IMG/VR virus record: IMGVR_UViG_3300048834_000253
Coordinates: 1-51,705 of that record
From: a virus
DNA length: 51,705 bases
Strand: one strand, 5' to 3'
Shown: piece after piece, positions 2,317 to 45,149 of the stretch
Layout: the number at the start of each line of letters is the position of its first letter
How positions within the stretch are numbered: position 1 is the first letter of the stretch
Notes under the pieces: model-generated
Told to the model about the DNA's origin: nothing
The model's database searches: none
Seen by the model: only the letters and a program-made list of their open reading frames with translations
Made by a program: the position numbers and the translations under genes

Positions 2317-4155
2317 TTAGATCACCTCCACGATTGTGATTTTTCCGTCAGCGCCGTCGCCGCCCTTGCCTGCGGGGAAGCCGTTGATGTTGCCCGTGCC
2401 ACCGTCGCCGCCGTCGCCGGGGTTGACGCCGTTGGCGCCTGCCGTGCCCACTACCACGCCGGTTGCGCCGCCGCTTCGCCCGCCGCGCTGGCCACCCAGC
2501 AGGGCTTGAATGCCGGTTGCACTGGCGTCGCTGCCTGCACGGCCATTCGGACCGCCCCACTCCGTATTTGTAACGACACTAATACCTGACCCTCTGAGCT
2601 GCCCTGCTGCATTGCCAGCGGGTGCGGCGTCTTTTCCTCCGCCGAGTGGGCCGTCGCCGTGCGAAGAACTGGAGCCGCCGTTGCCGGTGTGCACACCCCC
2701 GGCTGCAGAGCGCAGCGCGCCGATGCTTGATGCGCCGCCAGACGTCCCCGCCCCGATGGTCTTGTTTGCGGGGGAGTTATCTACCGATGCAGCAGCACCA
2801 CCCGTGCCTTTCGCGCCCACGGTGCACGTCACCGACGCCCCCACCGTGACCTCGGCAAGTGCAATGCTGGTTTTCCAGCGCTCGCCCGCACCACCCCCGC
2901 CGCCGTTGTAGCGTGCTGCTGCACGGGCGCCACCACCGCCGCCCGCGCCCCCAGCAATCAGGTCGGCATCCCACTGCTGGATGCCCGGCGCCCATACGTA
3001 GCTGCCCGTGGTCGTGAAGGTCTTGGTGCCACCAACAAGTGGAATGGAATAGAGCGCGGCGCCGTCGCACAGCACGAGCCGGACGGCGCCGGGGTACAAC
3101 ACAAAGTTCGCAAGCCCGTCAATCGTCTCGGCGCTGTTCGGGTCGAGCGTAATGTCACCCGTGTCATAGTTGCGCACGTAGCACCACCAGCCGTTACCCA
3201 GCGTGGCGGCTGCAGTGAGTCCAAGCGTCCATGTGCCGCTGCAGTCGATGAGTGCGCCTTTGTCCGTGCCGACAAGCGTGTATGCGCTGGTTTTTGTGGC
3301 TCGGGCCATGCTGCCCGGTGCGGCTTCCGAAGTCCACTCCACCCCTGTCTCATTGCTCTTGACGCGCAGGTTTTTAAGTGCCTGACCAGCCAGCGCCGGT
3401 ATATCAGCCCCCAAATCCTCCACCCACGATGCGTCTTTTCTCGCGTATGCTTTTCCATCGCTGGGCGCCTCTGGCACAGGCCCGCCAGCAATGGACGCAG
3501 CGCTCGCCGCAGCCTCTGCCGCTTTTGTCGTTGCGATGCCAGCCTGCGTCGTTGCGATGCCAGCCTGCGTCGTTGCGATGCCAGCTTGCGTGGTGGCTAC
3601 GCCAGCTTGCGTTGTGGCCGTAGAGGCTTGCGCCGCAGCAACGCCAGCCTGCGTTGTGGCCGTTCCGGCCTGCGTGGTGGCGACCCCTGCTTGAGTCGTG
3701 GCCGTTGTTGCCGCATTCTGCGCAGCCGTATTTGCCACCTCCACATCCTCCACATTGATGGCCAACTGCACCCGGCCTGCGGAAATGTCGGTGGCCAGCA
3801 CGCCAGAGGTGTGCCCCGCGATGACGGAATAGATGTTCTTGCTGACCGGATCGCGGAAGTAGTCACTGATGACGTAGGCGGTGGCGGTCAGCCAATCGCC
3901 TCTATACCGTCCGTAAGAGATTGCCGTGATGTTGCCTGACGCATTGAAGGCCAGCACCAGATTGGCCCGGGCGCCCGCGTCCATGGCCAAGGTCTGATCT
4001 GCCGTGCCTACCGGGAGTTTGATGGCCCGGTCTGCATCGCCCTGCACTTCATCAAAGCCAGCTTCTACGCGGGCGAACTCGTCTTTGAGCACCTGGGACG
4101 AAACCCGCTGTTCTGGGAGGGGGTTATAGGCGCGCGTGTAAAAATCGTTGGGCAT
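2317..4155 (-). CDS. Tail fibre protein with glycine-rich tip
   Basis: This 612-residue protein is the likely receptor-binding fibre. Residues 1-150 form an N-terminal domain beginning MPNDFYTRAYNPLPEQR, probably for attachment to the tail. Residues 150-210 are tandem heptapeptide repeats (TTQAGVA type), which would form an extended or coiled-coil shaft. The middle has two short beta-rich segments. The C-terminal 200 residues are extremely rich in Gly, Ala and Ser (for example GGAGGGGGARAAARYNGGGGG), comparable to adhesin tips that fold as packed polyglycine helices. Overlap or abutment with the following assembly-type gene supports the assignment. No diversity-generating retroelement accompanies it. 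Confidence 0.8.
   Translation of the reverse strand: MPNDFYTRAYNPLPEQRVSSQVLKDEFARVEAGFDEVQGDADRAIKLPVGTADQTLAMDAGARANLVLAFNASGNITAISYGRYRGDWLTATAYVISDYFRDPVSKNIYSVIAGHTSGVLATDISAGRVQLAINVEDVEVANTAAQNAATTATTQAGVATTQAGTATTQAGVAAAQASTATTQAGVATTQAGIATTQAGIATTQAGIATTKAAEAAASAASIAGGPVPEAPSDGKAYARKDASWVEDLGADIPALAGQALKNLRVKSNETGVEWTSEAAPGSMARATKTSAYTLVGTDKGALIDCSGTWTLGLTAAATLGNGWWCYVRNYDTGDITLDPNSAETIDGLANFVLYPGAVRLVLCDGAALYSIPLVGGTKTFTTTGSYVWAPGIQQWDADLIAGGAGGGGGARAAARYNGGGGGAGERWKTSIALAEVTVGASVTCTVGAKGTGGAAASVDNSPANKTIGAGTSGGASSIGALRSAAGGVHTGNGGSSSSHGDGPLGGGKDAAPAGNAAGQLRGSGISVVTNTEWGGPNGRAGSDASATGIQALLGGQRGGRSGGATGVVVGTAGANGVNPGDGGDGGTGNINGFPAGKGGDGADGKITIVEVI
3527..3715 (-). repeat. Nine tandem 21-bp repeats in the tail fibre gene
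   Basis: Nine consecutive 21-bp units encode a heptapeptide of the QAGxATT type. The first two units (3527-3547 and 3548-3568) are identical and the third (3569-3589) differs at one base; the others have diverged. Near-identical neighbours suggest recent expansion by slipped pairing, which would change fibre shaft length in steps of seven residues. Confidence 0.9.
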
Positions 4156-4161
4156 AGTGGT

Positions 4162-6201
4162 TTACCGGTCAAGCCTGCGCGGCGTGTACACCACGGAAAC
4201 GCTTTGCAGGGTGTGGGGGAGTTCGTTGCTGGCCTGACTGATCACGCTCAGGCTCAGATCGGCACCAACACCGTCGAGCCGAACCTTGCTGATGGTGTTG
4301 CGCGGGATGTCGTAAAAGCTCTCGTCGTAGCTGCTGACGTCGTAGTACGCGCCATTGGCAGAGCGCAGCACCTCGGCGGCATCGGTCAGGCCAATCTCTG
4401 GGTTGCCCAGGCTGTATTCGCCCTGGACGATCACCCGGAAGGCGCTGTCAGATTTGCTTTCCAGGTCGGCCCGGCGAAAGCGCTTTTTCTCCATCGGGCT
4501 TTTGATGTGGTTGAAGGCCAGCTTTAGGTAGGCGAAGATTTCCAGCCCGTCGAAGCTGCGCCCCCGGTCGGCTTCATAAACGTAACCGTCATCGCTGCCA
4601 AAGAAAGTGCGGTTGTCACCGGCCATCACGGCTTCGCAGGTGCACCACACCGTCTTGCCGTAGTTGATGGGCATGAACGACAGAGCCACACCGTCCCGGG
4701 TTGCGATGGGGGTGATGCTCAAGCTATCACCGGTGGCAAAGAACAGGCGCATGCGCTGGTCTGCGCGGTTCACCACCGAAGCAATGGCGAGGCGGTTGCG
4801 CAGCAGGCGCTGGATGCGCGCCGACAGCGGCAGGCGAGAGAAGTTTCCGAAGGATTGGGATGCTTCCAGCGTGGCCAGCCCCAGGGTATCGAAGGCGATG
4901 ATTCGCCCCAGGCTCTGCACGCTCCAGCGCTGGGCGCCCACGTCATCCGAGAATGACGACAGTTTCCAGTCTGCGGTGCTGCTGCCATACAGCACCCAGG
5001 TGCGGGTTGCAGAAAACACCATGAGGGCGCCGCCGTCCGCATCCGATGGCAGCACCTTGAAGCCGGTCACCACGTCGCCCGCTGCAATCTCCCCGGCGCC
5101 AGTCACAGCAGACCACCGAAACGGCTCGGCAATGGAGCTGTTCTGCACCGACCCGTCGAAGCTGAAAAACAGGTGATTCTTGTGCGCCACGCAGTGCACA
5201 GGCTTGTCCACCGCCATGCCGGTTTTGATGGGCACCAGCACGTCGCCGTCAAACTCGAAGCCACGGTTCACACCGTCTGAGCCATAGATGCGCTGCGCAC
5301 CTGCACGTCCGGTGAAGTTGTACACGCACAATTCCAGCCTGCCGCCTGGCAGCATGGTGATCGAAGTTTCCGCTCCACTGGCAGTAGCCGTGACACCTGC
5401 GGTGAAGGCCCCGGCAGTGAATGACCCGCCCGATGGCGCAGCGATGATGAAGCGCCCGGCTGCAGTGCCCGCAGCCCAAGTGCCCGACTCCAGCGAGATC
5501 CGTTTGAGTACGGCAGACACTGCACCTTTAGTGATCGTTGCCCCTTCGGCGGGGGCGGGGCCACTGCCCGCAGTGAATGCCAGTTCACGATAGAACGGAA
5601 CCAGCACCCAGCCAGCGGCTGAACTCTTGTACATTTCGCACGCAGTCACCCCGGCGTTGTCGCGCCAGGCATAGACCACCGTGCCCAGAATGCCGATGCC
5701 ACGGATTGGCCCAGAGCCAGGAACAGCGCCAATGTCTGCCCGGTAGCTGGCGGCTGCCAGCGTTGCAAACTCGTTGTCATCGAAACCGTCAATGTCCGAG
5801 GCGTCGCCGTAAATCACGCCGATGGGGGTTCCAGCGACATTCAGCGTCTCGCCCGATTCAAAGGCGCCCACCACGCGGGTGATCACGATCTGGGATGCGC
5901 TGCGCACCTGAATGACGCGCCCGGTGGCTGCGGATGTGACGCCCGTCACGGTGTTTCCAACCGCAACCCCGGTGAAAACATCAACCGCCTGGAAGCACTT
6001 GTAGTCGGCATCGCTGGGACGTGGCCGACCGTCAAAGCGCTCGTACCCGCCAATGCGCTCGTACCCTTCCAGTGCGGAGCTTTCGTAGTTCATGGCGCCG
6101 ACCACCGTTCCAGGCTTCAGCGTCAACTGAGCCGACTCGGCATCCAGCCCCCCCGCCAGCGGGAAATACTGGGTCTTGGTGGGCGGCATCTGCATGCTCA
6201 T
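4162..6201 (-). CDS. Tail tube/stabilisation-type structural protein (podovirus nozzle-like)
   Basis: This 679-residue protein begins MSMQMPPTKTQYFPLAGGLD and is beta-rich throughout, with repeated Gly/Ala and Trp-containing strands. It matches the style of large podovirus proteins annotated as stabilisation or tail proteins that lie between the head-tail adaptor and the fibre. The order portal, head, adaptor, this gene, fibre supports a role in the short tail. No enzymatic motif is seen. The start overlaps the stop of the adaptor-like gene. It may carry the fibre attachment site; this is inference. Confidence 0.65.
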   Translation of the reverse strand: MSMQMPPTKTQYFPLAGGLDAESAQLTLKPGTVVGAMNYESSALEGYERIGGYERFDGRPRPSDADYKCFQAVDVFTGVAVGNTVTGVTSAATGRVIQVRSASQIVITRVVGAFESGETLNVAGTPIGVIYGDASDIDGFDDNEFATLAAASYRADIGAVPGSGPIRGIGILGTVVYAWRDNAGVTACEMYKSSAAGWVLVPFYRELAFTAGSGPAPAEGATITKGAVSAVLKRISLESGTWAAGTAAGRFIIAAPSGGSFTAGAFTAGVTATASGAETSITMLPGGRLELCVYNFTGRAGAQRIYGSDGVNRGFEFDGDVLVPIKTGMAVDKPVHCVAHKNHLFFSFDGSVQNSSIAEPFRWSAVTGAGEIAAGDVVTGFKVLPSDADGGALMVFSATRTWVLYGSSTADWKLSSFSDDVGAQRWSVQSLGRIIAFDTLGLATLEASQSFGNFSRLPLSARIQRLLRNRLAIASVVNRADQRMRLFFATGDSLSITPIATRDGVALSFMPINYGKTVWCTCEAVMAGDNRTFFGSDDGYVYEADRGRSFDGLEIFAYLKLAFNHIKSPMEKKRFRRADLESKSDSAFRVIVQGEYSLGNPEIGLTDAAEVLRSANGAYYDVSSYDESFYDIPRNTISKVRLDGVGADLSLSVISQASNELPHTLQSVSVVYTPRRLDR

Positions 6202-35338: not shown

Positions 35339-36297
35339 GCGGCCTCCTTCGTCTTCTCGATTACGTGCTTTTTGCCCTTCTCCGTCAGCAGAAAATCAAA
35401 GTCGCACTGCCAGCCCTCATGCCCCGGAGCCTTGCTTCCTCGGCCCATCAAAAAATCGTTGTCCCGCGCTCGGCCAAAGTAGCCACGGATCCAGGCCATC
35501 GCCTCTTCCGCGTTCGTGGCCCGTGGCGTCCCGTCTGATTTTTTGCTGGTCAGCACGAAACGCCAGAACGCGGATATTGCTTTTCGGCGGTTGTCGTTCA
35601 TCAGCCGCACCGTTGGCAATTCGGGCAGGATTTCGTGATACAGCGCAACCACCGAATTCGTGTCGCATCTCGGCAATTTGTCGGCGCCGCCGACAGAAGC
35701 GTTAGCTTCTTTATCTTGTTCCTGTTCCTGTTCTTGGCTTGCAAGGGGCTTGCAAGGGGCTTGTATGCCCCTTGTTATTGCGCCAGGATTCGGCAGGCGG
35801 AATGACTCAAAATAGATAGCAAAGAATGCAGCCTTGAGCGAAGGTGATCCAATGTTTGACCACTCACGCTCAACTCCCTTCACACGGTTGTCACCGGGCT
35901 TGAGAGACTCCGCGACTTGGTATGCGGCCATGCGGTGGACAAAGATGGTCTCTGAAGCCTCGTCGTAGGTGCAATACTTGGCTTCGATGAGGCTCTGAAG
36001 GGCCTTGGAAGCCCCTTCCATGCCAAGGCCGGTTTCATGTGCCATGTAAAGAATGGGGCAATGGAAGACGCCGATCATGTTGGCGTGCGGGCAAGTCATC
36101 AGGTACAGCGCAAGCACTTGCGCAGGCGCATTTCCTCGCAGCGCTTTTCCAGTGTCACCAATCCAGAATTTGGGTGATACCACCCCATAGTCACGCATCT
36201 GTTCGCCCTTCAATGCCCAAAAAAAAGAAACCATCGGCAGGCAGGCGGGCGTGTCCTGCTTTTCGGGAGCTACCCTAGCCGTGGCGTCAAAACTCAT
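35335..36297 (-). CDS. O-like replication initiation protein
   Basis: This 320-residue protein precedes the helicase in the position of lambda O. The segment MRDYGVVSPKFWIGDTGKALRG through ALYLMTCPHANMIGVFHCPILYMAHETGLGMEGASKALQSL is typical of phage initiators with a winged-helix N-terminus. A Gln/Glu-rich linker (SQEQEQEQDKE) leads to a C-terminal domain ending WQCDFDFLLTEKGK, the pattern by which such proteins recruit helicase. Two starts are possible: ATG 36297, coupled by ATGA to the upstream gene, or ATG 36198, at the beginning of the conserved part (287 residues). Direct repeats in or next to this gene usually form the origin; I saw no clear iterons. Confidence 0.7.
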   Translation of the reverse strand: MSFDATARVAPEKQDTPACLPMVSFFWALKGEQMRDYGVVSPKFWIGDTGKALRGNAPAQVLALYLMTCPHANMIGVFHCPILYMAHETGLGMEGASKALQSLIEAKYCTYDEASETIFVHRMAAYQVAESLKPGDNRVKGVEREWSNIGSPSLKAAFFAIYFESFRLPNPGAITRGIQAPCKPLASQEQEQEQDKEANASVGGADKLPRCDTNSVVALYHEILPELPTVRLMNDNRRKAISAFWRFVLTSKKSDGTPRATNAEEAMAWIRGYFGRARDNDFLMGRGSKAPGHEGWQCDFDFLLTEKGKKHVIEKTKEAA

Positions 36298-36852: not shown

Positions 36853-37110
36853 TTACGCGGCCTCTGTGGTGGTGGTCTTGGGCTTGCGGGGCTTGGCGCG
36901 CAGCACCGCCCAATTCACATCGGGGCGCAGCGCCTCACACTTGACTCCGGTAGCGGCCTCCACATCAGGGCAGTGTTCTGCTGGGATGCGGTTCTGCTGC
37001 CACTGATAGACAACTGCGTGGCCGCTGAGTCCAAGTTTCCTTGCGAGCTTGGTGCGACCGCCCGCAAGGCGGATAGCCTGATCGAGTGGGGTTTCGGTGG
37101 TGGTGTCCAT
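36853..37110 (-). CDS. YdaS/Cro-like regulator
   Basis: This 85-residue protein begins MDTTTETPLDQAIRLAGGRTKLARKLGL and has the YdaS/Cro-like helix-turn-helix (GGRTKLARKLGLSGHAVVYQW) with the following PAEHCPDVEAATGVKCEALRPD that is typical of this family; the C-terminus is basic. It diverges from the cI gene and probably takes the part of Cro, shutting off repressor synthesis. ATG 37110 is preferred to an upstream GTG at 37119: the predicted -10 ends at 37120, so the mRNA would begin close to the ATG with almost no leader. Confidence 0.82.
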   Translation of the reverse strand: MDTTTETPLDQAIRLAGGRTKLARKLGLSGHAVVYQWQQNRIPAEHCPDVEAATGVKCEALRPDVNWAVLRAKPRKPKTTTTEAA

Positions 37111-37119
37111 ATGCCCCAC

Positions 37120-37148
37120 ATCTTACGATAGTTTTTCTATCTTGTATA
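37120..37148 (-). promoter_or_regulatory. Leftward early promoter (lambda PR equivalent)
   Basis: On the minus strand TATACA (37143-37148), a 17-bp spacer and TAAGAT (37120-37125) form a promoter for cro and the replication-late operon. Operator O1 fills the spacer and O2 reaches over the -35. The geometry is identical to that of the rightward promoter at 37885-37913. Confidence 0.6.
37127..37141. promoter_or_regulatory. Repressor operator O1
   Basis: GATAGTTTTTCTATC is a perfect dyad (GATAG/CTATC around TTTTT). It fills the spacer of the leftward promoter. Three related sites are at 37145, 37874 and 37892. Confidence 0.75.
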
Positions 37149-37159
37149 GATTTTCTAGC
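37145..37159. promoter_or_regulatory. Repressor operator O2
   Basis: TATAGATTTTCTAGC matches O1 at most positions, centred 18 bp from it. It covers the leftward -35 and lies upstream of cI, where it could also help repressor control its own gene. Confidence 0.65.
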
Positions 37160-37183
37160 GCTCCAAGTGATTACCCTGATACC

Positions 37184-37795
37184 ATGAGCATCCACAAATT
37201 GATCAGACAGGGCCGCGAGCGCCTCGGGTTGACCGAGGAAGCATTCGGAAAACTTTTCGGAGTGAGCCGTGGCGCGGTGCAGCAATGGGAGCGGGAGGGG
37301 GGGACGGCCCCACGGCGCAAGATTCAGCCCCTAGTCGCTCAAGCTTTAGGCATTTCTGTTGCACAGCTCATGGGTGGCGGCGCAGACACTGCGGATGGCC
37401 CGGATATAGGAGGTGTTGTGCCGCTTTTAACGTCAGTACAGGCTGGGGATTTCAAAGAATTTGTGGATAACTTCCACCCAGGGGACGGGGCCATGGAGTC
37501 CATACCGACATCAGTGCCCGTCAACCGCCACACTTTCGCGCTCCGGGTAGCTGGTGACAGCATGGAGCCTGAGTTTCACGCTGGGATGATCCTCATCATT
37601 GAGCCGGAAATGGAGCCAAACCCCGGAGATTTCGTCGTGGCGCGCAATGGCGACAACGAAACTACGTTCAAGCAACTGATTCAAGATGGCGCAGACTGGT
37701 ATCTGAAGCCCTTGAATGACCGCTACCCAATCAAACCACTTGGGAAGTCATCAATCATTGGGGTGCTGCGCGCAGTAGAGAAGCGCTACCGCTAA
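37184..37795 (+). CDS. CI-type repressor with LexA-like S24 protease domain
   Basis: This 203-residue protein keeps the prophage silent. The N-terminal helix-turn-helix (LIRQGRERLGLTEEAFGKLFGVSRGAVQQWEREG, 6-39) binds operators. The C-terminal S24 domain has Ser126 in VAGDSMEPE and Lys163 in TTFKQL as the catalytic pair, with a likely self-cleavage site at Ala87-Gly88 in SVQAGDF. RecA-stimulated cleavage would cause induction. Start ATG 37184 matches the family N-terminus; no Shine-Dalgarno sequence precedes it. A weak -10 (TACCCT, 37172-37177) would put transcription start on the ATG itself, as in lambda PRM. Confidence 0.93.
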   Translation: MSIHKLIRQGRERLGLTEEAFGKLFGVSRGAVQQWEREGGTAPRRKIQPLVAQALGISVAQLMGGGADTADGPDIGGVVPLLTSVQAGDFKEFVDNFHPGDGAMESIPTSVPVNRHTFALRVAGDSMEPEFHAGMILIIEPEMEPNPGDFVVARNGDNETTFKQLIQDGADWYLKPLNDRYPIKPLGKSSIIGVLRAVEKRYR

Positions 37796-37840: not shown

Positions 37841-37873
37841 CGTCTGTACGGGTAACTACTTACAACATTCTTA

Positions 37874-37888
37874 GATAGTTTTTCTTGC
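37874..37888. promoter_or_regulatory. Repressor operator O3
   Basis: GATAGTTTTTCTTGC has one perfect O1 half and a weaker second half. It overlaps the -35 of the rightward promoter. Confidence 0.68.
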
Positions 37889-37913
37889 TTTGCTAGTTTT
37901 TCTATCGCATAAT
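37885..37913 (+). promoter_or_regulatory. Rightward early promoter (lambda PL equivalent)
   Basis: TTGCTT (37885-37890), 17-bp spacer, CATAAT (37908-37913). O4 fills the spacer and O3 overlaps the -35. It would drive the whole plus-strand operon after a long leader. Confidence 0.72.
37892..37906. promoter_or_regulatory. Repressor operator O4
   Basis: GCTAGTTTTTCTATC is centred 18 bp from O3, the same spacing as O1-O2, and lies within the promoter spacer. Confidence 0.7.
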
Positions 37914-37997
37914 TCACTCACGCCAACAAAACGGCGCGGGTGACAAGCCATCGAGCAGGCCACCGACAGGAACCTTAAAAATCTTTTTCCTGCGGAT

Positions 37998-38024
37998 CAG
38001 TTGTTGCACTTTACGCAACAACTG
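37998..38024 (+). promoter_or_regulatory. Leader hairpin 1
   Basis: CAGTTGTTGC and GCAACAACTG are perfectly complementary (10 bp) around a 7-nt loop. There is no T-run after it, so it is not a terminator. Its right arm plus AC recurs at 38809-38820. Confidence 0.65.
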
Positions 38025-38026
38025 AC
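38015..38026 (+). repeat. 12-bp direct repeat, left copy, before HNH cassette
   Basis: GCAACAACTGAC occurs here and at 38809-38820. The two copies bracket a 782-bp segment that contains the HNH-AP2 gene. This could be a target-site duplication from insertion. Confidence 0.45.
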
Positions 38027-38250
38027 AGCCCTTGATTGGGTAGTGGGCGCGGACACCGGGCGTGAGACGGTGATTGAGGCGATGCCAGCCAACAACAGCA
38101 AGGGCATCAAGACAGCGAGCGTCCCGCGTGGGGTAGCGCTTGAGTCGAGAAGCTGGAGCCGGTGCATACCGGGAGACGCCAGCAGCAGCACACACCAAGG
38201 CGAAGCGCCATGGTTTGAAAGGACGTGCTGCAAACACCTTCGCAGAGGGT

Positions 38251-38282
38251 GCAAACAGAAGGCGAACAAGCCTTCTGTTTGC
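38251..38282 (+). promoter_or_regulatory. Leader hairpin 2, just upstream of HNH ribosome-binding site
   Basis: GCAAACAGAAGGC and GCCTTCTGTTTGC form a perfect 13-bp stem with a 6-nt loop. It ends directly before GAGGAAAGT-ATG of the HNH gene. It lacks a T-run. It may control translation or be an RNase III site. Confidence 0.65.
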
Positions 38283-38291
38283 GAGGAAAGT

Positions 38292-38786
38292 ATGACGAAA
38301 CACATGACTGCAGAGGTGGCGCGTGAAATCCTAATTTACGAGCCGGAAACAGGTCTGTTCCGCTGGAGAGTGGATCGGGGAAACGGGCATCGTGCCAATG
38401 ATCTGGCTGGAAGGATGAACAGCAATGGGTATTGGGTTGTTGGGTTCAAACAATATCCGCTACTCGCGCATCGTCTTGCCTGGCTGTACATGACCGGCGA
38501 ATGGCCTCCCTTCAATGTTGATCACATAAATGGGGACAGGTGTGACAACCGCTGGGCAAATCTCCGAGACGGCAGCGGCCCCATAAACGCACAGAACGTC
38601 AGGCGAGCGCAAAGAAATAACAACTCATCCGGGCTTCTTGGTGTAACCAAGAGGCAAGGCAGGTGGGAAGCGCAAATCAAGTCGCAAGACGCAAAGAGGT
38701 ATTTAGGCTCTTTCGGATCGCCGGAAGATGCCCATGCCGCCTATGTTGAAGCCAAGCGCAGGCTACATGCTGGATGCACCATCTAA
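38292..38786 (+). CDS. HNH-AP2 homing-type endonuclease 1
   Basis: This 164-residue protein has an N-terminal unit with ILIYEPETGLFRWRVDRGNG, an HNH core (HRLAWLYMTGEWPPFNVDHINGDRCDNRWANLR, with H-N-N pattern) and a C-terminal AP2-like DNA-binding unit (GVTKRQGRWEAQIKSQDAKRYLGSF.SPEDAHAAY). These are free-standing homing endonucleases of phages. ATG 38292 is preceded by GAGG. A longer in-frame extension upstream is rejected because it has no protein-like composition. The gene is first on the rightward transcript and flanked by a 12-bp direct repeat. Confidence 0.9.
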   Translation: MTKHMTAEVAREILIYEPETGLFRWRVDRGNGHRANDLAGRMNSNGYWVVGFKQYPLLAHRLAWLYMTGEWPPFNVDHINGDRCDNRWANLRDGSGPINAQNVRRAQRNNNSSGLLGVTKRQGRWEAQIKSQDAKRYLGSFGSPEDAHAAYVEAKRRLHAGCTI

Positions 38787-38808
38787 CAAGGCGGGCGCTC
38801 AGGTGGGC

Positions 38809-38820
38809 GCAACAACTGAC
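38809..38820 (+). repeat. 12-bp direct repeat, right copy, after HNH cassette
   Basis: GCAACAACTGAC, identical to 38015-38026. The following 150 bp (to 38968) contain no gene, include GAGATCAGCA at 38837 shared with the region after HNH 2, and end in a terminator. Confidence 0.45.
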
Positions 38821-38921
38821 GGACACGGCACTGATAGAGATCAGCAAAGCACCGGCCAGCGGTGCAGCAGGAACCGGCACAGCCGGAATATGCCTGCAAG
38901 CCATTCGAGAGAGTGGCAAAG

Positions 38922-38956
38922 CCCATGCGCCAGTCACTGAGGGCGCATGGGTTTTT
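38922..38956 (+). terminator. Intrinsic terminator before the 38969 gene
   Basis: CCCATGCGCC (38922-38931) and GGCGCATGGG (38942-38951) pair perfectly, followed by TTTTT. The downstream gene begins 12 nt later with no visible promoter between, so read-through or antitermination is implied. Confidence 0.85.
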
Positions 38957-38968
38957 CAAGGAGCCAGA

Positions 38969-39181
38969 ATGATCGAAGTCACGAAAGAACGGTTTTTCGC
39001 AACAGTAGGGCTGATGGACGTGCACCCAAGGGCCAACCCTGACCACTCGTCATGGGAGACACGCAGCCGCGAGGTTGTCGGGCGCACCACGCCGGGCTAT
39101 CTGTGCCGCGATGAAATCGGCCAATGGACGAACAAGAGCAGGTACTTCGTGGCCGAGCGCTTCTCCAGGGACAGCCAGTAA
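38969..39181 (+). CDS. Small protein, unknown; first non-mobile gene of the rightward operon
   Basis: This 70-residue protein (MIEVTKERFFATVGLMDVHP) starts after AAGGAG. It contains two Trp and NPDHSSWETRSREVVGRTTPGY and ends FVAERFSRDSQ. I recognise no family. It sits between two HNH genes, immediately after a terminator and as the first non-endonuclease gene of the operon, the place of lambda N. It is not obviously Arg-rich like N; a role in antitermination would be speculation. Confidence 0.6.
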   Translation: MIEVTKERFFATVGLMDVHPRANPDHSSWETRSREVVGRTTPGYLCRDEIGQWTNKSRYFVAERFSRDSQ

Positions 39182-39241: not shown

Positions 39242-39256
39242 CCATCACAGAACAGG
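39242..39256. repeat. 15-bp inverted repeat, left arm, flanking HNH 2
   Basis: CCATCACAGAACAGG is exactly complementary to 39748-39762. The arms enclose the whole HNH-AP2 gene 39274-39726, 18 bp before its start and 21 bp after its end. Confidence 0.6.
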
Positions 39257-39273
39257 AATGCGCAGGAGGAGTT

Positions 39274-39726
39274 ATGCGACCAACGAAAGAGCAGATTGCC
39301 GAGCACTTTGACTACATGGCTGGCGCATTGATTCGCAAGACGACGGGAAAGCGCGGGTACGCCAGGCCAGACGGATATGTTTACGTGCGCCTGCATGGCA
39401 GGTCATATGGCGAGCATCGGCTGATCCATTTGCTGTTTACCGGCGAGTGGCCGCACCAAGTTGACCATGCGAATGGCGTTCGTAGTGATAACCGCCATGA
39501 GAACCTGCGTTCGGCCACACACGCTCAAAACTGCATGAATCGCAAACAGATTGGCGTCACAAGCAAAGGGTGCTACTGGCTGCCAAAGCGGCAGAGGTGG
39601 ATGGCTCAGATCGGCAGCGGCGGCAAGCGCAAAACCATTGGCTACTTCAGGACAGAGGCTGAGGCCGCAGCGGCATATGCCATGGCCGCAGAAGCCCTCC
39701 ACGGCCCGTTCAAGCGAACTTCCTAA
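39274..39726 (+). CDS. HNH-AP2 homing-type endonuclease 2
   Basis: This 150-residue protein is a paralogue of the 38292 product. It has HRLIHLLFTGEWPHQVDHANGVRSDNRHENLRSATHAQN as HNH core and a basic AP2-like C-terminal unit (GVTSKGCYWLPKRQRWMAQI, RKTIGYFRTEAEAAAAYAMAAE). AGGAGG precedes ATG 39274. It is enclosed by a 15-bp inverted repeat. It probably spreads by copying itself into phages that lack it. Confidence 0.9.
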   Translation: MRPTKEQIAEHFDYMAGALIRKTTGKRGYARPDGYVYVRLHGRSYGEHRLIHLLFTGEWPHQVDHANGVRSDNRHENLRSATHAQNCMNRKQIGVTSKGCYWLPKRQRWMAQIGSGGKRKTIGYFRTEAEAAAAYAMAAEALHGPFKRTS

Positions 39727-39747
39727 ATGCCGGAGATCAGCACCGGC

Positions 39748-39762
39748 CCTGTTCTGTGATGG
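39748..39762. repeat. 15-bp inverted repeat, right arm, flanking HNH 2
   Basis: CCTGTTCTGTGATGG is the exact reverse complement of 39242-39256. Confidence 0.6.
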
Positions 39763-39946: not shown

Positions 39947-39970
39947 AGCCCTGCAATGCGGGGCTTTTTT
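39947..39970 (+). terminator. Intrinsic terminator-like hairpin
   Basis: AGCCC (39947-39951) pairs with GGGCT (39961-39965) around TGCAATGCG and is followed by six T. The next gene begins 13 nt later. Confidence 0.7.
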
Positions 39971-39982
39971 CATGGAGCAACT

Positions 39983-40696
39983 ATGGCCCACAAGCAATCG
40001 TGCACCGAGGAACGATTCCTCAAAGACGCGGCAGCTCACCATATGGAGGTGCTGCGCGATGACGGTGTGAACCGCCATTTGCGATTCAAGAATCCCGAAT
40101 CGAACGCCTACTGGTTCGACATCATCACTTGGCCCGGCACGCTGTGCGTTGACGGCGACATGGGCACCTTCGTGTTCCGGCGCCTGCATGACATGTTCGT
40201 GTTCTTCCGCACGGATCAGGAGCACTACGACCGGACGGGCCGCGCCGACCGGTTGGCGATCAACCCCAGCTACTGGGACGAAAAGCTGCGCGCGCCAGCG
40301 CCACGCGATGCCCAGGAATACTGCGCCGACAGCTTCCGCCAGCATGTCCAAGAGGCTTTCGACAGCTGGAAGGAGAGCAATCAGCCCGACGACGACGAAT
40401 GGACCACCGATGCCGACCGGCGCCAATTTGAAGAGCAGCGGGATGCGCTCTGGGCCGCGCTGAAAGAGGACGTGATGTCGTATGCCGATGACGGCTTGAT
40501 TCGCGCCTACGACGCGGCCCGCGACTTCCGCTGCGATGAGGTGCCGGGGTTCAACCTGGAGGACTGCTGGGAGTGGGACTGCCAGGTGTTCAAGTTCGAT
40601 TTCCTGTGGAACTGCTACGCCATCGCGTGGGGTATCAAGACCTACGACAAGGCGAAGCAGGCGGCGCAAGCAGCTCCGGAACTGCAGCAGGGCTGA
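39983..40696 (+). CDS. Conserved phage protein, unknown function
   Basis: This 237-residue acidic protein begins MAHKQSCTEERFLKDAAAHH and contains HLRFKNPESNAYWFDIITWPGTLCVDGDMGTFVFRRLHDMFVFF, a segment that I have seen in proteins of many proteobacterial phages without assigned function. Many Trp, Asp and Glu residues occur in the second half; no catalytic motif is clear. Acidic composition raises the possibility of DNA mimicry, without direct support. GGAG lies 5 nt before ATG 39983. A terminator ends 13 nt upstream. Confidence 0.75.
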   Translation: MAHKQSCTEERFLKDAAAHHMEVLRDDGVNRHLRFKNPESNAYWFDIITWPGTLCVDGDMGTFVFRRLHDMFVFFRTDQEHYDRTGRADRLAINPSYWDEKLRAPAPRDAQEYCADSFRQHVQEAFDSWKESNQPDDDEWTTDADRRQFEEQRDALWAALKEDVMSYADDGLIRAYDAARDFRCDEVPGFNLEDCWEWDCQVFKFDFLWNCYAIAWGIKTYDKAKQAAQAAPELQQG

Positions 40697-42557: not shown

Positions 42558-42821
42558 ATGACACATCCAATGCTCCAAGAATCATGGGACGAAGCCGCAG
42601 CTTGCGCCCAGATCGAATACGACCAGAAACAATCTAAGGAGAGCACCAATGGACAACATGAAACTTTGGCAGTCGGTTTGTGTGACCGACCCGAAAGCAG
42701 TAAAGCCGATCACGGGGAAGCAGTACAAGGGCAACTCCCCAAAACCATATTGGGTTATCCAGCGGGCTACAGAGGTGTTCGGCCCCTGTGGCCTGGGCTG
42801 GGGAGTGCAGATCCTTTCTGA
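42558..42821 (+). CDS. Doubtful small ORF overlapping the annealing protein gene
   Basis: An 87-codon frame (MTHPMLQESWDEAAACAQIEYD) starts right after the 34-residue gene. The first 35 residues look protein-like, but the rest overlaps the next gene by 173 bp and looks like out-of-frame sequence. It may be a remnant of a small gene whose end was lost. Confidence 0.3.
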   Translation: MTHPMLQESWDEAAACAQIEYDQKQSKESTNGQHETLAVGLCDRPESSKADHGEAVQGQLPKTILGYPAGYRGVRPLWPGLGSADPF

Positions 42822-43308
42822 GCGATTTGAGCGCTTCGGGGATGAAGCCCTGCACATCGCCCATGTCATGGTCTGGTACATGCAGGACGGCAAGCGCTGC
42901 GAGATTGAGCAGATGGGACAAACCCGCGCCGCGTACATCTCAGCCGCAGGCAAACACATCGTGGACGAGGACGCCCCCAAGAAGTCGGCCACGGACGGAA
43001 TGGTGAAGTGCTTGTCCATGCTGGGTTTTGCTGGGGACATTTTCAGCGGCCAGTGGGACGACTCCAAATACGTTGCATGGGCAGCGGAGGAAACCAAGCG
43101 CCGCGAGATGCCCACCATCACAGAGAAGCAGGCCGCAGACGTTGTCGCGCTGATTCAGGAAGTCGGTGCAGACAAGGTCGCATTCCTTGCATGGGTGGAA
43201 AAGATGGCGGGCCACCCCGTACCGACAGAGCAAGACATTCCAGCCGCCGCGCTGGACACCGTTACCAAAACCCTCGAAAAGAAACGCACTCAGAAAGCAG
43301 CAGCATGA
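42649..43308 (+). CDS. Rad52-like single-strand annealing protein (probable)
   Basis: This 219-residue protein has the pattern of phage Rad52-superfamily annealing proteins: VKPITGKQYKGNSPKPYWVIQRATEVFGPCGLGWGVQIL, HVMVWYMQDGKRCEIEQMGQT, then DEDAPKKSATDGMVKCLSMLGFAGDIFSGQWDDSKYV. It would anneal complementary single strands during phage recombination. AAGGAG precedes the ATG, and the gene is coupled to ssb, the usual partner. The C-terminal 60 residues are helical and variable. Family assignment is by pattern only. Confidence 0.65.
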   Translation: MDNMKLWQSVCVTDPKAVKPITGKQYKGNSPKPYWVIQRATEVFGPCGLGWGVQILSERFERFGDEALHIAHVMVWYMQDGKRCEIEQMGQTRAAYISAAGKHIVDEDAPKKSATDGMVKCLSMLGFAGDIFSGQWDDSKYVAWAAEETKRREMPTITEKQAADVVALIQEVGADKVAFLAWVEKMAGHPVPTEQDIPAAALDTVTKTLEKKRTQKAAA

Positions 43309-43705: not shown

Positions 43706-43879
43706 ATGGCCCAACGCGATTACAAGCGGTACGCCCAGACGCCCAAGGGCAAGGCCGCAAGAGCCAGGGCGCACGCTAAGTACATCGCAAAACGGCGTGA
43801 ACTGAATCAACAACCGAAGGCCAGCACTGCCGCAGTCGCTGGCCTTATTACTTCATGGGGGCGCAATGGCAATCCCTGA
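43706..43879 (+). CDS. Small basic protein, unknown
   Basis: This 57-residue protein (MAQRDYKRYAQTPKGKAARA) is very basic. Its end overlaps the next gene by 14 bp and its last third lies over a hairpin. The composition resembles small HNH-associated or nucleic-acid-binding phage proteins. Existence is plausible from the start 3 nt after the ssb stop. Confidence 0.45.
   Translation: MAQRDYKRYAQTPKGKAARARAHAKYIAKRRELNQQPKASTAAVAGLITSWGRNGNP
43817..43846 (+). terminator. Hairpin, possible weak terminator
   Basis: AAGGCCAGC (43817-43825) and GCTGGCCTT (43838-43846) pair, with an inner ACTG/CAGT. It is followed by ATTACTTC only, so termination may be weak. Confidence 0.5.
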
Positions 43880-44129: not shown

Positions 44130-44872
44130 ATGCAAATCGCATCCGAAGTTCTCGCCGTTCTCAGTGCCGCCCAGGTGGATGGCTGTCATGTCGCACTCAC
44201 CGGTCAACTAGACCGCAAGCTGTATGAGCGCACAAACAAGGTTCTGGAGGCTGCTGGAGGCAAGTGGAACCGCAAGGCGCGTGCCCATGTCTTCGACGGC
44301 GATGCGGCAGAGCGGATGGACCAGATCATCCTCAGTGGCTCTGTCGAAGTGCCAAAGGATGAATTCAACTTCTTCCCCTCACCACCGGCTGTGATTGAAC
44401 GCCTGATGGAACTGGCCGACATTGAGCCAGGCATGCGCGTGCTGGAGCCCAGTGCGGGACAGGGCGCAATTGTGCATTGGCCTGCGCCGAGGCGGGCGCC
44501 CTGGTGGACTGTTGCGAGCTGATGGCAGCGAACCACGAGCACCTACTGAAGTTGCCGGGCCTGCGCATTGTGGAGCGTCGGGACTTCCTGGCCGCGCCAC
44601 CAGACCAGACCTACGATCGTGTGGTGATGAACCCGCCATTCCTCAAGCAAGCAGACATCAAGCACGTCACCCACGCGCACAAGTTCTTGAAGCCGGGGGG
44701 GCTGCTGGTGTCTGTCATGGCGGCCGGTGTCACTTTTCGCACAGATGCCAGCACCAAGGCATTTCTCGCCCTGGTCGAAGAGCGCGGCGGCCATGTCGAG
44801 CCGCTACCAGAAAACTCCTTCAAGACCAGCGGCACCGGCGTCAATACGGTGATTGCGGTCATACCTGCATGA
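44130..44872 (+). pseudogene. Frameshifted DNA N6-adenine-type methyltransferase
   Basis: The first part (44130 to about 44475) encodes an N-terminal unit (QLDRKLYERTNKVLEAAGGKWNRKARAHVF) and SAM-binding motif I (VLEPSAGQGAI). The rest (from about 44477 to 44872, -1 frame) continues ACAEAGALVDCCELMAAN, motif IV NPPF (DRVVMNPPFLKQ) and HKFLKPGGLLVSVMAAGV. Together they form one class I methyltransferase with an NPPF active site as in adenine-N6 enzymes. One lost base near 44470-44480 splits it. As it stands the protein would stop at 44522 without motif IV. Disabled gene, sequencing error or phase variation are all possible. Confidence 0.85.
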
Positions 44873-44879
44873 GGCCGTC

Positions 44880-45149
44880 ATGACCACTCTACCCCCCCCG
44901 CAAAAACTGCGCCTGAAACACGAAACCAAGCGCTTGATGCTGCGCCGCAAGCTGTGGCGCCGCCGCGCCCTTGACGCAGCCCTTGAACTCGCCACCTGGC
45001 CGCCCGGCAAGCCCGACCGCGAGAAATGCGAGGCCGAGGTGCACAAGACCATCAACAAGCTGCGCCAGTGGTTCCGAGATCCCCGCGCGTCGCTGGTGAT
45101 TCAGGCGGTGCAGCGCAGAGCGGTTGCCGCGTTTCGCTCGCGGTCATAA
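44880..45149 (+). CDS. Small basic protein, unknown
   Basis: This 89-residue protein (MTTLPPPQKLRLKHETKRLML) is very rich in Arg and Lys with ALELATWPPGKPDREKCEAEVHKTINKLRQWF. It starts 7 nt after the methyltransferase stop. It may bind nucleic acid. A terminator follows. Confidence 0.6.
   Translation: MTTLPPPQKLRLKHETKRLMLRRKLWRRRALDAALELATWPPGKPDREKCEAEVHKTINKLRQWFRDPRASLVIQAVQRRAVAAFRSRS

Follow-up and report, generated by a model that had tools for sequence, protein, structure and literature searches.

A long structured leader on the pL-type transcript

The window, i.e., the whole stretch of DNA analyzed here, is an IMG/VR virus record (IMGVR_UViG_3300048834_000253; 51,705 bases) with a lambda plan of genes. 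As judged from sequence comparison, the transcript from its apparent counterpart of the lambda promoter pL opens with a leader that is long, seemingly untranslated and conserved in its architecture, ordered as a start hairpin, a second hairpin region, a boxA, hairpins that vary among relatives, and a 3' module before the ribosome-binding site of the first gene. Antitermination was the likeliest function for this leader, which was read, with a probability of about 0.6, as an N-less antitermination leader dependent on boxA and Nus factors, similar to those of ribosomal RNA (rRNA) operons (rrn). The elements of its 5' part are listed below (relatives carry L numbers throughout).

37865-37908 (+): operator-like repeat overlapping the pL-equivalent promoter, 75% identical to the repeat at 37118-37161
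37885-37913 (+): pL-equivalent promoter, with -35 box TTGCTT (37885-37890), a spacer of 17 nucleotides (nt) and -10 box CATAAT (37908-37913)
37914-37943 (+): leader hairpin 1 at the transcript start, CACTC-A-CGCC ... GGCG-C-GGGTG, which folds
37944-37969 (+): second hairpin region, ATCG..GG(T/C)CACC..CGA, folding weakly in the window; sequence common to L338, L341, L342 and L363, with tentative pairing
37970-37981 (+): boxA, GAACCTTAAAAA, about 55 nt from the transcript start
37997-38025 (+): perfect hairpin of 11 base pairs (bp), TCAGTTGTTGC/GCAACAACTGA, with a 7-nt loop, beginning 15 nt past boxA
38251-38282 (+): perfect 13-bp hairpin, GCAAACAGAAGGC/GCCTTCTGTTTGC, just 5' of the ribosome-binding site of an HNH endonuclease gene

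The leader strand from 37914 to 38291 (378 nt) folded at -161.6 kcal/mol, compared with a mean of -125.62 for shuffled sequences (standard deviation 5.56; z = -6.47), and none of 100 shuffles was as stable. These values bore out the hairpin-rich 378-nt leader described in an initial annotation of this DNA, along with its two perfect hairpins, one with the announced 13 bp and the other with 11 bp instead of the 10 first counted. The rightward promoter of that annotation was retrieved by its sequence, at a place which by gene order would be that of lambda pL; it was absent from the matches of a stricter consensus scan, scoring below the cut-off. The operator-like site overlapping it was closely resembled by a site in L004 and L005.

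Across leaders, structure rather than sequence appeared to be conserved. The outer stem of hairpin 1 was kept among relatives while its inner stem read CGCC/GGCG, TCGC/GCGA or GCCGC/GCGGC (by eye). Counterparts of the 11-bp hairpin, with quite different stem sequences, occupied the same place between CTGCGGAT and GTAGTGGGC in L339, L359 (which overlaps L366) and L368.

A coding leader was considered and set aside, as no ATG-started frame of note was present in the window leader. The frame continuous with the HNH gene had no stop after 37941 and contained a TTG at 38001; no support for its translation was found, a separate homology search of that frame not having been made.

A boxA of ribosomal type

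The boxA matrix was built only from rRNA leader and spacer sites of genomes G263, G147 and G295 (six sites, five distinct), which avoids circularity. With this matrix from Curvibacter-family genomes, which may not be those of the window's host, the site at 37970-37981 ranked first of the 103,388 window positions on both strands. Eighteen leaders were compared (window, L004, L099, L110, L111, L113, L117, L119, L338, L339, L341, L342 and L363-L368), and the first 250 nt of each were tested for a boxA with 300 shuffles. The p values ranged from 0.003 to 0.02 in eight leaders (window, L338, L341, L363, L366, L367, L368 and L113) and were borderline in two (0.053 in L339, 0.05 in L342). Eight of these ten leaders had the site 54 to 59 nt past the aligned start; in L339 and L368 it was at 143 and 146. 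It was the top match of the whole fetched stretch in six (window, L338, L341, L366, L368 and L113) and ranked 2 in L367, 5 in L363, 10 in L339 and 13 in L342. A NGNTCCTTAAAA-like sequence was present 3' of the 5' hairpins in many leaders. No Rfam match was obtained at the gathering score for the window leader, nor with lax limits for the window, nor in any of the 17 other leaders.

The rRNA leaders of three genomes folded as two hairpins directly before boxA, the same order as in the phage leader, whose boxA likewise comes after hairpins close to the start of the transcript (in the window, hairpin 1 is clear and hairpin 2 weak). The rrn order is boxB-boxA-boxC, and boxA is reported to be both required and enough for recruitment of the rrn complex (PMC10250234); the boxA consensus and targets outside rRNA are treated in PMC5725501. 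Candidate boxC strings (GATGTGATGGG), recognized by eye only, followed boxA in L338, L366 and L368 and were not seen in the window.

A ribosomal-type boxA points to the recruitment of Nus factors and not to a modification of RNA polymerase by RNA alone. The latter would be the put-like case, in which the 5' hairpins bind RNA polymerase through the zinc-binding domain of its beta' subunit and antitermination is protein-free, the likeness to boxA being secondary. The leader element is indeed placed as HK022 putL, within roughly 70 nt of the pL transcript start, with a clear first stem-loop and a weak second one in the window, put being about 70 nt long with two stem-loops and putL lying just downstream of PL (excerpt of PMC9378689). 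As a lead only, boxA-less L365 matched putR at leader positions 29-50 (L365 2140-2161; 86% over 22 nt, E 0.011). However, no put similarity was found in the 5' element of the window, and the other boxA leaders gave no match at E <1 (15 leaders compared); putL and putR gave a single match in the window leader, of 16 nt (E 0.046), which fell inside the HNH gene, so that the comparison with HK022 put made in the initial annotation was not supported for the window. The second hairpin also folds poorly in the window, and no second copy was recognized after the leftward promoter, where no systematic search was made. A put-like element was accordingly judged quite unlikely.

Starts, origins and modules of the leaders

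Fifteen leaders were aligned at their start, of which 11 begin with CACCCATCGCA(G/C)C or CACCCATGCCGCA (in L342 the first C is missing); CACTCA(C/T)GCC opens those of the window and L004, and the starts of L113 and L099 differ. The string ATCGCAGC stands at the beginning of the host rRNA leader (L369 and L370) and of many phage leaders, which may be due to chance. Leader starts were placed by eye (within about 2 nt), and the ends of L110, L111, L113, L117 and L119 were arbitrary cuts. Lengths ranged from 321 to 1,136 nt in L338, L339, L341, L342, L363-L368, L004 and L099. Since the MAFFT alignment of the 5' hairpins was unusable, 5' covariation was assessed by eye. The operator palindromes 5' of the leaders were of at least five types (by eye), so that leader inheritance does not depend on the immunity type.

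The viral contigs L338, L339 (same as L340), L341 and L342 were among 16 loci with relatives of window gene 39983-40696, of which L343 and L344/L345 looked coding by eye and L346-L353 were not read. L363-L367 came from a DNA search with the L341 leader, matched by six of 399 genomes of the Curvibacter family, the sixth being the genome of L004. L368 is Acidovorax phage AP1, taken from the phage collection, and its deposited genome has no feature between the genes at record positions 4700 and 5665. L110, L111, L113, L117 and L119 are leaders of repressor relatives, 13 of 80 such loci having been read; L112 (same as L099) and L127 (of the N-bearing lambdoid type) stand outside the kept set, and L109, L118, L120, L121, L123 and L126 were excluded by eye (gene following closely or no evident leader). 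Repressor relatives were found in four of the 399 family genomes, one of them that of L004; in L217 and L218, the stretch read was devoid of such a leader. Used as DNA queries against the phage collection, the leaders of the window, L099 and L004 retrieved nothing of relevance, and the L338 leader retrieved nothing from plasmids.

A module GCGCTGCGAAGGAGAACACATG was shared by L004 (7427-7448), L338 (5465-5486) and L341 (5405-5426), inside the leaders, where it forms a good ribosome-binding site before a very short open reading frame (ORF; four codons in L004 and L338). In the leader of L113, past L113 position 5594, a gene on the other strand appeared to be flanked by the two arms of a long inverted repeat (by eye).

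Their length and variable module content could also fit leaders that hold non-coding small RNAs as cargo, boxA then only stopping premature Rho termination as proposed for arrays of clustered regularly interspaced short palindromic repeats (CRISPR), whose transcription is improved by boxA (PMC7862264, citing Stringer et al.). The kissing-loop element described below, which occurs within the L368 leader and further down in the window, would be compatible with such a locus. This explanation is unlikely, however, as it leaves the intergenic terminators further down unaccounted for.

An inserted HNH gene and a conserved 3' module

38292-38786 (+): HNH endonuclease gene inside the leader (Pfam HNH_3, 7e-15, with an AP2 match below the cut-off; phrog_99, 2e-55)
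38787-38968 (+): rest of the leader, ending like L004 and L099
38900-38917 (+): hairpin A of the 3' module, 7 bp; five of seven pairs with compensatory changes (RNAalifold, nine sequences)
38918-38955 (+): hairpin B of the 3' module, resembling a terminator, directly adjacent to hairpin A and with a T run and AGGAG after it

Contrary to the first annotation, 38291 is not the end of the leader, which resumes after the HNH gene and runs to 38968. L004, whose repressor is 75% identical to that of the window and whose DNA also occurs in a Curvibacter lanceolatus genome, has a closely similar promoter and then about 550 nt that lack any HNH gene and finish with two hairpins and a ribosome-binding site. 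Because this end recurs in the window past the HNH gene (38899-38971), the gene was considered to sit within the leader. A third copy of the leader end was found in L099, with an unrelated promoter and repressor N-terminus, and the first genes after these three leaders looked unrelated by eye. No relative of the HNH gene was detected in the 17 other leaders (tblastn, E 0.01).

The 3' module was present in all nine leaders chosen by eye for it, as two hairpins directly adjoining each other, without an intervening base; a T run closes the second and precedes AGGA and a start codon. A strict fold criterion retained eight of these nine modules, 1 of 1800 mononucleotide shuffles, and three of 6886 window tiles, one of which was the 3' module. 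A different tandem hairpin forms the end of L338, L339, L341 and L367, and L110, L111, L113, L117 and L119 lay outside the comparison. Since pairs counted from each module's own predicted fold are all paired by construction, the MAFFT alignment read with RNAalifold was less biased; on this alignment of the nine modules hairpin B was not recovered, and it was also missing from the strict and lax terminator scan lists reported below. A loop motif, GCGCC..CACTGAGGG, was rejected as a general mark: among the scanned leaders it was limited to the window, L004/L203 and L099, other matches being unrelated by eye, and it represents one variant of hairpin B, with one match in 399 family genomes. Compensatory changes were thus present in relatives (hairpin A by RNAalifold, hairpin 1 by eye), which answers the lack of such changes that the initial annotation had named as an outcome speaking against it.

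The place of hairpin B, directly 5' of a ribosome-binding site in nine leaders, would suit an attenuator or riboregulator sensing some signal and switching this terminator-like hairpin before the first gene, with no processive effect. A possible alternative pairing of CTCACGCC (37917-37924) with GGCGTGAG (38059-38066), with a compensatory change in L004 (by eye), goes in the same direction. Yet the middles of the leaders differ in their modules, with no common core seen by eye, and the later terminators would stay unexplained, making such a switch a poor candidate.

Downstream terminators and the missing N protein

38969-39181 (+): first gene 3' of the leader, 70 amino acids, in the lambda N position; no family, not arginine-rich
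39947-39971 (+): intrinsic-terminator-like site, first of five 3' of the leader

Terminators were counted under a strict criterion that was set after the sites were seen: 7 or more stem pairs, at least 5 of them G-C, and then 5 T. Five were found on the operon strand between 38900 and 49200 (39947, 40919, 44096, 45157 and 48865), and none in any of 100 dinucleotide shuffles of this region, on its opposite strand, or on the strand of the leftward operon from 37.1 to 17.2 kb. The description of the operon as full of terminators therefore agreed with the strict sites, while lax scans stayed at chance level, with 21 sites against a shuffle mean of 20.3 on both strands of 32-51.7 kb, and 17 against 18.5 in a second scan. 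A promoter scan of 32-51.7 kb gave three sites, fewer than the 6.4 expected from shuffles, and a single one (42558) falls within the operon. The absence of an N-like gene noted initially was also supported: no N or Q family was present among 35 scanned proteins, 28 of them in the pL operon, where not every ORF was scanned.

In the lambda nut site, boxB lies 3' of boxA, the reverse of the order in the rRNA and phage leaders. A site of this type, serving an N-type phage protein that escaped recognition, would fit the genomic position, which is that of nutL, and the small basic ORFs at 43866 and 44880. The distant repressor relative L127 is also relevant, as enterobacterial phages with DNA like its leader have N annotated there in several records. 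Nevertheless, no conserved boxB-like hairpin was found close after boxA, five of the ten leaders with a site having no stem of at least 5 bp starting within 20 nt. The first gene after the window leader is not arginine-rich and has no family, and the two basic ORFs lack PHROG matches, with two or three of the five terminators standing before them. A nut-like site was considered very improbable.

Proposed mechanism and its weight

In the proposed N-less mechanism, boxA would be bound in the nascent RNA by NusB-NusE, which with NusA, NusG and SuhB would turn RNA polymerase termination-resistant, as in rRNA operons, without a phage N. With such a polymerase, the long untranslated leader RNA would be shielded from Rho, and, together with the leader hairpins, polymerase would pass the terminator-like hairpin of the leader and the five later terminators, reaching the recombination genes and the integrase. 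The boxA would thus act without a phage protein and overcome intrinsic terminators, and the HNH gene would be an insertion outside the mechanism. The extra leader hairpins may supply what boxA alone lacks against intrinsic terminators.

Several observations weigh against this N-less, boxA-dependent mechanism. The rrn complex is known mainly for Rho resistance, and the action of boxA alone on strong intrinsic terminators is doubtful. No significant boxA was found in eight of the 18 leaders (L364, L365, L004, L099, L110, L111, L117 and L119), four of which (L004, L099, L364 and L365) still carry the 3' module, and the counts are not independent because leaders are partly related (L338, L341, L363). 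No boxA of the leftward transcript was among the 25 best matches of the window. The long leader was not tied to its promoter either, being present in one (L004) of five contigs with the operator-promoter pattern of the window; by eye, a gene seemed to start within about 30-80 nt in L005, L092 and L094, and after about 190 nt in L096. Three small basic ORFs were flagged (40536, 43866 and 44880), the first in another frame of gene 39983-40696. Finally, the boxA of the window departs from the gamma-proteobacterial consensus GYTCTTTAANA (PMC5725501) at three of its ten fixed positions, and so does one host rRNA leader site, GAACATTAAAAA.

With regard to the antitermination or riboregulator element initially proposed, a conserved structured RNA with compensatory changes, downstream terminators, no recognized N and a signal of antitermination type all held, and its put-like part found no support in the window. 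A wider scenario, with somewhat less than an even chance, is that a group of temperate phages, to date seen mainly in Curvibacter-family bacteria, replaced N by copying the host rRNA leader. Hairpins and boxA at the start of the pL transcript would then recruit the complete rrn machinery, the leader would dock swappable RNA modules, and boxA-less relatives would have another RNA-only device, possibly put-like.

Genome context and a second RNA element

36853-37110 (-): Cro/YdaS-like gene, divergent from the repressor
37184-37795 (+): CI-like repressor gene (helix-turn-helix and S24 peptidase)
39242-39762 (+): copy of a second phage RNA element, of kissing-loop type, with a perfect 15-bp closing stem
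39274-39726 (+): second HNH gene, in place of the middle of that element
42649-43308 (+): exonuclease-like protein gene of the operon

The promoter at 37885-37913 appeared to be the lambda pL counterpart by synteny, because it points the same way as the repressor gene and is followed by exonuclease-like, SSB and integrase genes. The plus-strand operon 3' of it encodes HNH endonucleases, the exonuclease-like protein, SSB, a Lar-like protein, integrase and genes of no known function, while the minus strand codes for an O-like protein and a DnaB-like helicase. An int-alpA RNA (RF02996, 53.7 bits) was detected in the leftward early operon at 36216-36285 (-), directly before the O-like gene, with a T-rich end. 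A DNA methyltransferase-like gene (44130-44883) was split over two overlapping frames, 44130-44522 and 44477-44872.

HNH genes were lodged in structured RNA twice in the operon. The second element consists of a variable closing stem, a AATGCGCAGGCTGATGCGC hairpin, a variable middle and a GCCGGAGATCAGCACCGGC hairpin; its loops GCTGAT and ATCAGC are complementary and possibly kiss. At least 68 distinct copies were found, widespread in phages, including the window, L330, L249, L221, L127 (near 5895-6003), L368 (near 3143-3275, reverse-complement coordinates) and a phage P1 record. The closing stem had at least 7 contiguous pairs in 62 of the 68 copies listed; when the partners were shuffled, 10.9 copies on average, and never more than 19 in 200 rounds, had such a stem. 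No Rfam match was obtained in the copies scanned, and its sequences were not found in the literature text searched.

Significance and comparison with known systems

The known routes to phage antitermination are N/nut, Q and put, and Nus-dependent coliphages that are not lambdoid still rely on an N-like protein (PMC11893012). If the N-less reading is true, a host ribosomal boxA used without a recognized phage protein would be a further solution; it would account for terminator read-through in some N-less phages and offer a natural test of whether the rrn complex overcomes intrinsic terminators. The leaders form an unannotated group of long structured RNAs, and no prior report of such a phage leader was found in open-licence PubMed Central papers.

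Among the closest known systems, the rRNA operon leader (boxB-boxA-boxC, Nus factors, SuhB, S4) likewise has a boxA right after hairpins and close to the start of the transcript, in a long untranslated structured RNA with no phage protein recognized. The window leader differs in standing on a phage early promoter, before a messenger RNA with intrinsic terminators, in its lack of an identified boxC (by eye) and in the variable modules after boxA. With the lambda nutL and N leader it shares the place after a promoter downstream of cI, a boxA and a structured leader, but the phage leaders have no recognized N gene and no conserved boxB after boxA, their hairpins being 5' of it. HK022 putL likewise places stem-loops in the initial 70 nt of its pL transcript and follows the same N-less logic, whereas the 5' element of the window has no sequence similarity to it and possesses a boxA. 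The boxA sites before CRISPR arrays and suhB also lie 5' of a long non-coding or regulatory leader, while that of the window belongs to the early operon of a temperate phage.
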